Assembly: GCA_014879675.1 (NCBI GenBank)
Contig: JACSRQ010000159.1
Coordinates: 1-32,132 of the forward strand
Length of the DNA stretch: 32,132 nucleotides
Direction: 5' to 3'
Source: Ignavibacteria bacterium
GTDB lineage: Bacteria; Bacteroidota; Ignavibacteria; Tepidaquicellales; OLB5
How positions within the stretch are numbered: position 1 is the stretch's first letter; the number at the start of each line of letters is the position of its first letter. A model generated the notes under the pieces. That model did no database searches. It worked only from the letters and a program-made list of their open reading frames with translations, and was not told where the DNA came from. The position numbers and the translations under genes were made by a program. Below, piece by piece: positions 56 to 27,913 of this stretch.

Positions 56-74
56 AAAAGGAGGGGAGCAAAAG
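56..74. repeat. Boundary copy of the palindrome-rich repeat, 5' of the DUF559 gene
   Basis: The 18 bases at 57-74 (aaaggaggggagcaaaag) are identical to the right end of repeat module 2 at 960-977. The core aaggaggggagc is the reverse complement of the left end of both modules (about 463-474 and 782-793). It lies 8 bases upstream of the DUF559 start codon, so that gene is bracketed by inverted copies of the module ends. Confidence 0.75.
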
Positions 75-82
75 ATAACAGG

Positions 83-451
83 ATGCATAAGAATAAACTT
101 CATAATCTTGAAACGCTTAAAAATCGGAGGAAGCAGCTTCGTTCAGAAATGACTCCGGCAGAAGCTTTTTTGTGGACTAGGTTAAGTAATGGGAAACTGG
201 ACGGCAGAAAATTCAGAAGGCAGCACAGTATTGGCAATTATGTTGTTGATTTCTACTGTCCTTCTGAAAAACTAAGTATAGAACTGGATGGCATGCCGCA
301 CTTTACCGAGGAGGGAATTGAGAAAGATAAAAAAAGGACGGAATATTTAGCAAGTTTGAGAATAAAAGAGATCAGGTTTGAAAATGCGGAAGTTTTTGAA
401 ATGACCGATGAAGTGTTAGCAAAAATAAAAGCATGCTTCAAAAAAGTATGA
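83..451 (+). CDS. DUF559 domain protein, Vsr-like PD-(D/E)XK endonuclease fold
   Basis: This 122-residue protein is full length for the DUF559 family, which is related to very-short-patch-repair (Vsr) endonucleases and other PD-(D/E)XK nucleases. The diagnostic block runs from about residue 18 to 105. It includes the basic FRRQHSIGNYVVDFYCP segment with D56, then SIELDG with E67 and D69, and H73; these are candidate metal or catalytic residues by analogy. There is no signal peptide or membrane segment, so it should act in the cytoplasm on DNA. The gene begins 8 bases after one boundary repeat and ends 6 bases before the start of repeat module 1, so it fills the space between inverted module ends. 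That placement suggests the nuclease belongs to the repeat element rather than to a host operon. Its DNA target and role are unknown. Confidence 0.85.
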   Translation: MHKNKLHNLETLKNRRKQLRSEMTPAEAFLWTRLSNGKLDGRKFRRQHSIGNYVVDFYCPSEKLSIELDGMPHFTEEGIEKDKKRTEYLASLRIKEIRFENAEVFEMTDEVLAKIKACFKKV

Positions 452-457
452 ACGTTT

Positions 458-677
458 TTTAAGCTCCCCTCCTTCTGGACTGCCCTGGCAGTTGAAGCTG
501 CGCTAGCAGCAGGTAAGAAGGGGAAAGATTCAGCATTAGCCGAATCAGGGGTGGTTTAGTTCTTCTGAATGATGTAGAAACGAATACCAAACCACCCCGC
601 CATAACTCGCTGGCGCTCGTTATGTCTGCCCCTCCTTGATCCCGCTGGCGCGGTATCACAAAGGAGAGGAGCAAAGA
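458..677. repeat. Palindrome-rich repeat module, copy 1
   Basis: This is a MITE-like module of about 220 bases. Its ends are inverted (tttaagctcccctcctt at 458-474; aaggagaggagcaa at 661-674). An inner inverted pair, ggggtggttt at 547-556 and aaaccacccc at 589-598, surrounds a poorly conserved centre. Small hairpins are nested inside: actgcc-ct-ggcagt at 479-492, gctgc-gcta-gcagc at 497-510, an imperfect one at 528-547, ataac/gttat ends at 602-622, and an imperfect one at 638-657. The module is noncoding; ORFs crossing it are not conserved between copies. The hairpin at 479-492 is absent from copy 2. Confidence 0.8.
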
Positions 678-738
678 TTTTGGATTAGTAGAACAGGAGT
701 ATGGTTTAATGCTTCTGTGTATTTAGGAAGCTTAAGAA

Positions 739-776
739 TAAACCACCCCGCCATAACTCGCCAGGGCTCGTTATGC
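739..776. repeat. Partial internal copy of the palindrome-rich repeat
   Basis: This fragment repeats the inner arm of the modules (aaaccaccccgccataactc, from about 740) and then a variant of the following hairpin with its centre changed from ctggcg to ccaggg. It joins directly to the left end of module 2 at 777. Together with 678-738 it looks like a module that has lost its left half and right end, so the 458-977 block is a mosaic of about two and a half units. Confidence 0.6.
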
Positions 777-977
777 TTTAAGCTCCCCTCCTTTGAAGCT
801 GCGCTAGCAGCTGGTAAGGAGGGGAAAGATTCGGCATTAGCCGAATCAGGGGTGGTTGAATGTTTCTGAATGTTAAAGAAGCTAAGACTAAACCACCCCG
901 CCATAACTCGCTGGCGCTCGTTATGTCTGCCCCTCCTTGATCCCGCTTGCGCGGTATCCAAAGGAGGGGAGCAAAAG
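777..977. repeat. Palindrome-rich repeat module, copy 2
   Basis: This is a second module with the same layout as 458-677. The left end is identical over 17 bases (777-793 versus 458-474). The hairpin at 828-847 is perfect here (gattcggc-atta-gccgaatc), and agctgc-gcta-gcagct is extended at 797-812. The inner arms ggggtggtt and aaaccacccc flank a divergent centre of roughly 30 bases. The right end at 960-977 matches the boundary copy before the DUF559 gene exactly. Downstream, 971-1005 is purine-rich with repeated gcaaaa-like steps. No gene is seen between 977 and 1124. Confidence 0.8.
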
Positions 978-5930: not shown

Positions 5931-5948
5931 TCCCCCTTCAAAGGGGGA
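5931..5948. repeat. Short GC-rich hairpin between convergent genes
   Basis: A perfect 8-bp stem, tccccctt with aaggggga, has a 2-base loop. The motif resembles the outer arms of other repeats in this window (cccctctcc-aaa-ggagagggg at 8394-8414). It lies 40 bases beyond the 3' end of the minus-strand protease gene. It could be a degenerate repeat or a weak terminator. Confidence 0.4.
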
Positions 5949-8163: not shown

Positions 8164-8258
8164 CTTCTCCCACTTGGTTAACGGGTGAAAGAGAACAACG
8201 AAATTTTGAGTTTTTTCTCCCCTCTCCCCCCGGGAGAGGGGGCAGGGGGTGAGGGGTT
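8164..8258. repeat. C/G-run repeat element, copy A
   Basis: This element shares its order of blocks with the reverse complement of 27628-27747: an aacgaaattttgag-like core at 8197-8210, then ttttctcccctctcc, a hairpin, then gggggtgagggg. Its hairpin is cccctctccc (8219-8228) with gggagagggg (8232-8241). It lies 200 bases upstream of cysS. No gene is seen between 8017 and 8459, a stretch filled mainly by repeats. Confidence 0.65.
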
Positions 8259-8360
8259 ATAAGCAAAGTCCATGCTCACATACTTTCTGTCACTTACTTA
8301 GCTTAAAAGCTGATAAAATTTTCTCTATTTAACCATTACACAATAAAAGTTATCTTACGA

Positions 8361-8420
8361 CCTCACCCCTTGCCGCACCGGTCGTGCGGCATTCCCCTCT
8401 CCAAAGGAGAGGGGAGGGCA
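8361..8420. repeat. C/G-run repeat element, copy B, with inserted 8-bp-stem hairpin
   Basis: Cctcacccct at 8361-8370 is followed by the perfect hairpin tgccgcac-cggtc-gtgcggca (8371-8391) and by a second hairpin, cccctctcc-aaa-ggagagggg (8394-8414). In the related element at 27628 the equivalent place after cctcaccccc holds a different hairpin, actgcc-tt-ggcagt. It ends 40 bases before cysS, so it may lie in that gene's leader. Confidence 0.65.
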
Positions 8421-10890: not shown

Positions 10891-11241
10891 ATGAAAAAAC
10901 TACTCGCCTCTGTTTTCTTTCTGGTTCTGATTTTTGTAGCTCGCGATGCTTATTCACAAAAAGCTTATGATCTGGAAGGCAGGTATTCGGTTGGCAAGGC
11001 GTACTGTACTGTTGAGTGGAGTGAAAGCTCGAAGGCTTTCCGTGTGTATTGGGATAACGGTACCGGCTACACGCTGCTGTTTTACAGCGATGAATATCCG
11101 AACGGCAACCTGGTTTACACCGAGTATGAAAACGACGGCGTTACTTATACCGGCACGTTCACATTTACCGATAGCGCATGCAATACCGGAACATATGACA
11201 GGTGGGATGGCAAACAGTTTTCGATCAAAAAGCGAAATTAA
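10891..11241 (+). CDS. Small exported protein of unknown function, likely beta-rich
   Basis: The protein has 116 residues. A signal peptide (MKKLLASVFFLVLIFVARDAYSQ) precedes a mature domain of about 93 residues with alternating aromatic and polar residues (AYCTVEWSESSKAFRVYWDNGTGYTLLFY), typical of a small beta-sandwich or lipocalin-like fold. I do not recognise the family. It begins 10 bases after the preceding gene. Its 3' end is followed directly by a truncated RAYT gene and a REP palindrome, so the insertion happened just outside its stop codon. Confidence 0.7.
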   Translation: MKKLLASVFFLVLIFVARDAYSQKAYDLEGRYSVGKAYCTVEWSESSKAFRVYWDNGTGYTLLFYSDEYPNGNLVYTEYENDGVTYTGTFTFTDSACNTGTYDRWDGKQFSIKKRN

Positions 11242-11249
11242 TTATTTTC

Positions 11250-11638
11250 TTGTAGGTCAAACGCATGCGTTTGACACTCTTGAAGTCAAATCTATTCCAA
11301 CCGAAAATGAAAAGAAGTCTGTGAACGATAACAGGTCAGATCAAGTTAAAAAAATGCATAAGAAGTTATCGATAGTTATAGGTTCGTTTAAGTCAGCAGT
11401 TTCAAAGCTAACACACAAAACAACGCCGGAAATACATTTTGCATGGCAGACCTCATTTTATGATCACATTGTAAGAAATGACAGGGAACTGGAATACATA
11501 TCAGATTACATTAGAATGAATCCGTTAAATTGGAAGAATGATCTTGAAAACCGTGAATTTATGTCAGATATTTCAAGCCTCGAACGCACCACGAGAACAA
11601 AGGATCACTATGACCGCCTGTTCAAGAAAACTTTATGA
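11250..11638 (+). pseudogene. Truncated RAYT (REP-associated tyrosine transposase), C-terminal part only
   Basis: The frame encodes a block that aligns with residues 113-200 of the intact RAYT at 12985: VIGSFKSAVSK, then WQTSFYDHIVRNDRELEYISDYIRMNP. The catalytic tyrosine candidate (SDYIRMNP) is kept, but the N-terminal half with the HUH histidines is missing, so it should not be active alone. The frame also reads through the perfect palindrome at 11256-11275 as VGQTHAFDT, at a place comparable to where the intact gene reads its own REP as VGQAATPT. The stop codon is followed after 2 bases by a second copy of the palindrome. The frame stays open further upstream, but only as a shadow of the 10891 gene. 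Confidence 0.75.
11256..11275. repeat. REP-like perfect palindrome, copy 1
   Basis: Gtcaaacgcatgcgtttgac is a perfect 20-base palindrome. Its flanks, gta on the left and a on the right, match the reverse complement of the copy at 11641-11660, so the two copies face each other. They bracket the RAYT fragment. The sequence is read in frame by that fragment. Confidence 0.9.
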
Positions 11639-12984: not shown

Positions 12985-13590
12985 ATGCCATTTAAAAAAT
13001 ACAAATCATTAAGATTAAAAGAATATAATTACAGTCAACCCGGTGTTTATTTTGTAACAATATGCACAAAGGATAGGAAATGTTTATTCGGTGAAATTTC
13101 CGGTGATGAAATGATCCTGAACGAAGCAGGTATAATTGCGCAAAATGAAATTGTAAATATACCGGGTCATTACCATAATATTGAAATTGGCGAGAACATT
13201 GTAATGCCGAATCATATTCATATGGTTGCTTATATTTATGATTTAATGGGCGTTGAGCAAACAGTGACGCCTGCGGTTTCTGAAAGTGGCGTCGGGCAAG
13301 CCGCGACGCCTACGAAAAACATCAGGCTTCAGGATGTTATAGGGTCTTATAAATCAGGCGTGACCAGAGAAATAAGAAAAATAAATGGATATGAAAACTT
13401 TAAATGGCAAAGATACTTTCATGATCATGTCGTAAGAACTGATAGAGCGCTTGAGAATATTTCCGATTATATAAGGTTAAATCCTATGAAGTGGGCAGAG
13501 GATATCGAAAATGAATTATATATTACGGGTATAACAGATAAAACGAGAACAAATAAAGCGAAAACCTTTTATAGAAATTTAACAATATAA
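12985..13590 (+). CDS. REP-associated tyrosine transposase (RAYT, Y1_Tnp / IS200-like HUH enzyme)
   Basis: RAYTs are single-stranded DNA nucleases that recognise and probably move REP palindromes. This 201-residue protein has the complete layout: YNYSQPGVYFVTICTKDRKCLFG near the N-terminus, the HUH motif MPNHIHM with H77 and H79, and SDYIRLNPMKW carrying the candidate catalytic Tyr162. WQRYFHDHVVRTDRALE lies between them. Residues of about 92-110 (QTVTPAVSESGVGQAATPT) are encoded by a REP copy inside the gene. Two arms of the same repeat lie just upstream (12895-12969), which ties the enzyme to its likely target. The start ATG at 12985 has no strong ribosome site. Confidence 0.93.
   Translation: MPFKKYKSLRLKEYNYSQPGVYFVTICTKDRKCLFGEISGDEMILNEAGIIAQNEIVNIPGHYHNIEIGENIVMPNHIHMVAYIYDLMGVEQTVTPAVSESGVGQAATPTKNIRLQDVIGSYKSGVTREIRKINGYENFKWQRYFHDHVVRTDRALENISDYIRLNPMKWAEDIENELYITGITDKTRTNKAKTFYRNLTI
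13286..13313. repeat. REP-like repeat located inside the RAYT coding sequence
   Basis: The 28 bases match the upstream arm at 12895-12922 except at three positions. The frame is preserved and reads SGVGQAATPT (residues about 101-110), in a segment between the HUH motif and the C-terminal helix block where RAYT sequences are expected to vary. The preceding bases 13263-13273 (gtgacgcctgc) look like part of the opposite arm. Confidence 0.85.
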
Positions 13591-27559: not shown

Positions 27560-27627
27560 TTTTTTCAATCCATAAAAATACCTCTTAGTACACGACAGGA
27601 GTACATTTGATTTGATAATTTGTTTTT

Positions 27628-27747
27628 CCCCTCACCCCCAGCCCACCTGACTGCCTTGGCAGTTCTCCCAAGAGGAGAGGGGAGAAAAGCCTCAAGAATT
27701 TCGTTATTCCCCCTCTCCTTTCAGGAGAGGGGGTTAGGGGGTGAGGT
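27628..27747. repeat. C/G-run repeat element, copy C, with nested hairpins
   Basis: The element starts cccctcaccccc and ends gggggtgagg, giving inverted ends. Between them are the perfect hairpin actgcc-tt-ggcagt (27650-27663), the pair tctccc/gggaga, the core ctcaagaatttcgttattcc (27691-27710), and the hairpin ccctctcc-(tttca)-ggagaggg (27711-27731). In reverse it is collinear with 8164-8258. The region 27560-27947 holds this repeat and AT-rich DNA (27748-27912) in which I see nothing else. Confidence 0.7.
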
Positions 27748-27913
27748 CAAGTATTGCTGAAATTTTAAAAAACCTTACTTCAAACAGAGGTTTACACAGA
27801 TTAAATTATTGTCGTGCATCTTAAAAATACCTTAAACTCAAATTATATACTATGAATTATCGTTGCAACCTGTTAATTTTGCACTTCAAATCTAAAAGTA
27901 ATTACAAATTAGT

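Follow-up and report, generated by a model that had tools for sequence, protein, structure and literature searches.

The window, by which we mean the entire 32,132-nucleotide stretch that was analysed, comes from the beginning of contig C25 in a draft genome of Ignavibacteria type, and a DUF559 nuclease gene lies near its left end among palindromic modules (Table 1). Each half of a module combines a C-run/G-run hairpin with another hairpin, variable in sequence, and with the G-rich tail GGGGTGGTT. The sequence AAGGAGGGGAGC is present on the forward strand at 58-69, 661-672 (with one mismatch) and 961-972, and its inverse at 463-474 and 782-793, so that the gene stands between the copy at 58-69 and the inverted copy at 463-474, as the preliminary description of this DNA had proposed; these five matches (allowing one mismatch) are all that the window contains, all within 58-972, compared with 0.06 expected in shuffled sequence. 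On the left side of the gene, 16-18 bp of the module remain, and the 56 bp upstream to the contig start are not module-like; this bracket is a mere fragment because only 56 bases precede it, the MAG contig ending there. The modules fold better than shuffled sequences (z scores of -2.4, -2.4, -7.1 and -4.3), in agreement with the hairpins and inverted repeats first read from the letters. No Rfam family was matched in positions 1-1200.

Table 1. Features of the DUF559 locus and of related repeats in the window, with the brackets of other DUF559 genes.
Feature	Position	Strand	Details
Left bracket, truncated right end of palindromic unit	57-74	+	AAAGGAGGGGAGCAAAAG
DUF559 nuclease gene, EDxHD/Vsr-like PD-(D/E)XK	83-451	+	122 aa; PF04480 at 104 bits
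Module 1, inverted dimer of two-hairpin units	458-680	+	CCCCTCC..GAAGGGG; second hairpin 527-546; G-tail GGGGTGGTT 548-556 / AACCACCCC 590-598, then hairpins, then GGAGAGGAGC
Partial module	681-776	+	tail AACCACCCC 741-749 plus hairpin half
Module 2, second inverted dimer without gene	777-977	+	
Solo hairpin dimer of the uvrC-type family (which brackets DUF559 inside uvrC, L001)	8218-8411	.	cysS upstream region
Second solo dimer of the uvrC-type family	27626-27748	.	CCCTCACCCCC..hairpin..hairpin..GGGGGTGAGGT
Bracket of DUF559 at L001			CCCCTCTCCTGAGAGGAGAGGGG-type
Bracket of DUF559 at L002			TTTCCCCCTGAAAGGGGGAACACAAGGGGG
Bracket of DUF559 at L004			TAATTCCCCTCTAGAGAGGGG
Bracket of DUF559 at L005			CCCCCCTTCGGCTTCTATAAAGGGGG

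The module at 458-680 is repeated at 777-977 (91% over 166 nt) and in part at 665-775, and it was also found on contigs C200 (85%), C48 (76%), C170, C212 and C233 of the source genome. The gene-free copies proposed in the preliminary description are supported. The window gene abuts GGAGGGGAGC and GCTCCCCTCC, paralleling the DUF559 gene of the unit in uvrC, which is bordered by GGTGAGGT on the left and ACCTCACC on the right. In species G208 and G216, recN and kefB (94% identical kefB) are 81-103 bp apart and the window element is missing between them; recN was not matched in the incomplete assembly of the source genome. Solo palindromes of the uvrC type were noted in frame within the repair gene recN itself (L244 of G208, 920-965; L245 of G216, 860-940). 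Elsewhere in the window are a lone hairpin, TCCCCCTTCAAAGGGGGA (5932-5947), similar to the L002-type repeat, and two genes resembling RAYT, the REP-associated tyrosine transposase (10946-11638 and 12985-13590; NF047646, below cut-off), that have no Pfam match.

The window DUF559 protein matches PF04480 and, weakly, PF18741 in Pfam, and has no Vsr domain (PF03852). Nine residues (E27, W31, D56, E67, D69, G70, H73, D82 and R98) are invariant in an alignment of 30 sequences. The closest solved structures by both sequence and fold are 3hrl (Neisseria NGO0050) and 3r3p (homing endonuclease I-Bth0305I); the window protein matches the latter with E=1.4e-6 and, as a model of pLDDT 89.8, with a TM score of 0.76, the positions of D69 and H73 not being identically aligned. 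The match of Vsr to the DUF559 model is weak (TM about 0.5). The predicted fold matches that of the EDxHD homing endonuclease I-Bth0305I, with E67, D69, H73 and D82 as candidate catalytic residues, and DUF559 has been grouped with EDxHD enzymes in a cyanobacterial genome paper (PMC9403480). The nuclease embedded in uvrC is under purifying selection, with pN/pS values of 0.10-0.21 and saturation of the synonymous sites, and DUF559 copies L016, L056, L257 and L271 contain stop codons, as decaying elements would.

The source genome encodes five strong DUF559 genes, and the four outside the window are each bracketed by a different palindrome family. None of them lies beside the window module, which was therefore rejected as a universal DUF559 partner; the preliminary description had named such genes as evidence against the link that it proposed, and what stands of that link is that each DUF559 type is accompanied by a palindrome of its own. 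Bracketing of DUF559 was also found in Bacteroidota, Bacillota, Acidobacteriota, Planctomycetota, Armatimonadota, Chloroflexota, Pseudomonadota, Cyanobacteriota and Deinococcota, among relatives chosen by DUF559 similarity alone, with examples in Sinorhizobium, Azospirillum, Novosphingobium, Neisseria, Deinococcus, Pseudanabaena, Clostridia and Acidobacteria; a gonococcal copy (L096) is flanked by long direct repeats. The flanking repeats span 40-280 alignment units, are multicopy, and occur inside reading frames. Within one genus, 27 of 30 DUF559 loci are bracketed, and the flank-similarity measure gave no bracket for 27 of 101 DUF559 genes, about a quarter. Of 5,426 E. coli genomes, about 3,300 carry the DUF559 gene ycjD, in the arrangement sapF-ycjD-fabI (L104, L230, L231). 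A 71-bp stretch including its palindrome has a median of four matching places per genome. This locus was considered as a clean empty site and rejected, as the examined strains without ycjD have efflux genes there.

For all open reading frames in 37 twenty-kilobase regions from 37 genomes, the 400 bp on the upstream side were compared with the 400 bp on the downstream side; by this similarity DUF559 ranked first in 20 regions, with 2.7 expected. In a sample from the same phylum, 15 of 27 DUF559 genes were bracketed versus none of 30 true Vsr genes. The flanks of the same locus were more similar than the 95th percentile of mismatched flanks from different loci in 36 of 51 cases, and a gene's own downstream flank was its single best partner at 24 of these 51 loci (1 expected). 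At the scale of whole genomes, C-run/G-run hairpins were counted minus a control of reversed pattern, and their median density was 2.31 per Mb in 63 genomes with DUF559 versus 0.32 in 70 genomes without it (p=2.6e-8; p=2e-4 with shuffling within families). In the source genome the count is 163 such hairpins, against none for the control.

Nuclease type and repeat are paired. In one genus, nucleases of the same type (>=60% identity) at unrelated loci have a common palindrome, with a median score of 24 versus 11.5 for different types (p=1.5e-6, calculated from pairs that are not independent, those of L255 and L271 with the window possibly sharing a recN neighbourhood). Four cognate pairs are independent of the window: L266/L002, L261/L258, L263/L255 and L264/L257. 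The second hairpins of L263 and L255 differ in sequence while their pairing is kept (GTCCCGC..GCGGGAC versus GTCCGG..CCGGAC), and of 21 copies of the uvrC-type family in the source genome, 19 have T-A or C-G as the inner hairpin pair, above every shuffle. Across all phyla, nuclease divergence and repeat divergence are weakly coupled (rho 0.08, p=0.015), a relation seen only above about 55% protein identity. Orthologous DUF559 genes of more than about 75% identity are mostly at the same locus, and movement is therefore not rapid; a phylum-level tree required 13 changes for 13 labels and gave no support for transfer between phyla in the sample. The pair L016/L017 was dropped as a case of one element at different loci, recN being a likely shared neighbour.

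Many DUF559 domains are in frame within long open reading frames, and DUF559 was found by Pfam to split UvrC, LeuRS (at two sites), MetH, HsdR (at two sites), HsdM and other DNA methylases. The palindromes on either side are translated, as in TSPPTPLLEGEGS...LPPLSSQERGTGGEV, and no intein domain was found in ten host proteins. The UvrC linker within a single genus is empty in four species (G209, G214, G215 and G217), carries a solo hairpin dimer in G207, and carries dimer, DUF559 and dimer in G000, G208 and G210, the dimers of the unit ending in ACCTCACCCCC...GGGGGTGAGGT. In LeuRS, one insertion site, a 29-residue stretch, is common to the unit carriers L069, L071, L181 and L157 and their uninterrupted relatives. 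At this same site, which is at the editing-domain boundary, L178 and L160 have other palindrome-like in-frame inserts that lack DUF559 and are translated as HVQHDISERHSELVSE and GHAELVEAPQT. The empty sites that the preliminary description had suggested looking for in related strains were thus found, at the UvrC linker in four species and between recN and kefB in G208 and G216. Exact junctions and target duplications were also sought in UvrC, LeuRS and recN-kefB, and none could be defined, the UvrC and LeuRS sites being variable linkers and all three sites too variable for exact junctions.

The preliminary description had pictured a mobile element with terminal inverted repeats. Its unit-like presence and absence is upheld by the empty, solo and full alleles, but the 12-bp sequences taken for its ends are the arms of hairpins in a two-hairpin unit with G-rich tails, and the enzyme family is closer to homing endonucleases than to transposases. 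We favour the reading, at a probability of roughly 0.6, that DUF559 is a dedicated homing-type nuclease of widespread short G/C-run palindromic repeats, which targets its cognate repeat and travels with it, solo repeats being the nuclease-free copies. Each nuclease type has a repeat of its own, built as an inverted dimer of hairpin-plus-G-tail units, and would cut or nick cognate dimers that lack the gene. The donor, with two direct copies of the repeat enclosing the gene, would offer homology to either side of the break, and repair would copy the gene into the cut solo repeat; recombination between the flanking repeats, or decay, would regenerate a solo repeat. The UvrC allele series, the direct repeats that flank DUF559 and the homology to homing enzymes fit such a model. 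Bracketing by its own palindrome in most of the bacteria examined, across many phyla and sometimes with in-frame insertion into essential proteins, suggests that DUF559 may be the enzyme so far missing for the spread or upkeep of a widespread class of bacterial repeats. Against the model count the quarter of DUF559 genes that gave no bracket, the failure to find a target-site duplication or clean junction, the mostly fixed loci of close orthologues, the tree without support for transfer between phyla, the weak coupling across all phyla, and the different role reported for a DUF559 protein of Caulobacter (PMC12907096).

The main rival is transposition of the REPIN/RAYT kind, in which DUF559 would itself take the hairpin unit as substrate, probably in single-stranded form at replication forks, and insert it at new sites, the solo dimers being transposed copies and not remnants of homing. 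It would better explain how solo repeats first arrive at new sites, and the inverted dimers of hairpin-plus-tail units resemble REPINs; the many solo copies, to which the hairpin count of the source genome attests, and the in-frame solo copies in UvrC, LeuRS and RecN also agree with it. Its probability is nevertheless rather low, as DUF559 has a PD-(D/E)XK endonuclease fold and not that of a HUH transposase, and neither a defined insertion junction nor a target duplication appeared at the three sites where these were sought. If instead the nuclease were a passenger on repeats moved by another enzyme (RAYT or host recombination) and had no role in their movement, the RAYT-like genes in the window and the other palindrome families at the same LeuRS site without DUF559 would be accounted for; this is unlikely, since the genome-wide abundance of repeats follows the presence of DUF559, nuclease type and repeat are cognate, and the nuclease is strongly conserved by purifying selection even inside uvrC.

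A host function, in which a Vsr-like nuclease for repair or cruciform processing stabilises palindromes and the gene is nearby by chance or regulation, would agree with the weak fold match of Vsr and with the Caulobacter DUF559 protein VsrA, which has been linked to cytosine methylation and to methylation-dependent DNA damage, arising when methylation is lost, a role that differs from that of a repeat nuclease (PMC12907096). The unbracketed state of true Vsr genes makes this quite improbable, as do the sampling of the Bacteroidota phylum, in which 78 of 148 genomes have DUF559 and about half do not, and the in-frame insertions in essential genes and empty sites, which are unlike a housekeeping gene. 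Hairpins adjoining genes are often terminators, and the brackets might be ordinary flanking terminators or the product of chance and GC composition; this has very little probability, given that the feature is absent from other open reading frames of the same genomes and from Vsr genes, and that the repeats are of the length described above, multicopy, and found inside reading frames.

Among known systems, REPIN/REP sequences with RAYT genes (REPtrons; PMC3116915, PMC3733652) resemble the DUF559 units in their short palindromes, often in inverted dimers, in their many copies without a gene, and in a dedicated nuclease gene that has the repeat on either side. Unlike them, the gene between the repeats here is a PD-(D/E)XK nuclease and not a HUH tyrosine transposase, the RAYT-like genes of the window being elsewhere; the GTAG tag at the unit end is absent, the tail being G-rich (GGGGTGGTT in the window, GGGGGTGAGGT in the uvrC type); and insertions are frequently in frame within genes. 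MITEs and IS elements are similar in having gene-free copies beside a gene-bearing form, but no transposase and no target duplication was found here. Vsr endonuclease (PF03852) is a distant fold relative in a separate Pfam family without repeat brackets. The EDxHD homing endonuclease I-Bth0305I (PDB 3r3p) is alike in sequence, fold and candidate catalytic residues, although DUF559 is free-standing or fused in frame, has no intron or intein, consists of a single domain of ~120 aa with no extra DNA-binding region, and lies between copies of its presumed target instead of interrupting it. Free-standing homing endonucleases also exist. The CGTC REPs and Rickettsia palindromic elements, reported from groups that include alphaproteobacteria, Chlorobi and Bacteroidetes, are likewise palindromes that are often inside replication and repair genes, and Di Nocera et al. 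(2013) described CGTC REPs without a dedicated enzyme (PMC3733652). The window repeat lacks their CGTC tag (it has CGCC there) and their CCA tail (the CGTC REP stem being 8-9 bp), whereas DUF559-linked repeats at L102, L047, L017 and other loci have a CCGTC/GACGG tail that hints at kinship. DUF559 segments are recombination hotspots in Legionella (PMC12308824). No link between DUF559 and palindromes was found in the open-licence literature.

Somewhat tentatively, DUF559-palindrome pairs may be a distinct pan-bacterial class of mobile element whose mobilising enzyme is non-homologous to RAYT and classical transposases, and which could be the source of most G/C-run palindromic repeats of bacteria, possibly including CGTC REPs and palindromes that encode protein. 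DUF559 genes are common and have no settled function, and their pairing with repeats supplies a testable enzyme for the short palindromic repeats found throughout bacteria, and E. coli, where the gene is ycjD, offers a new nuclease-target pair to study. Cognate pairing would also explain why peptides are repeatedly found inserted in frame in UvrC, LeuRS and other essential proteins.
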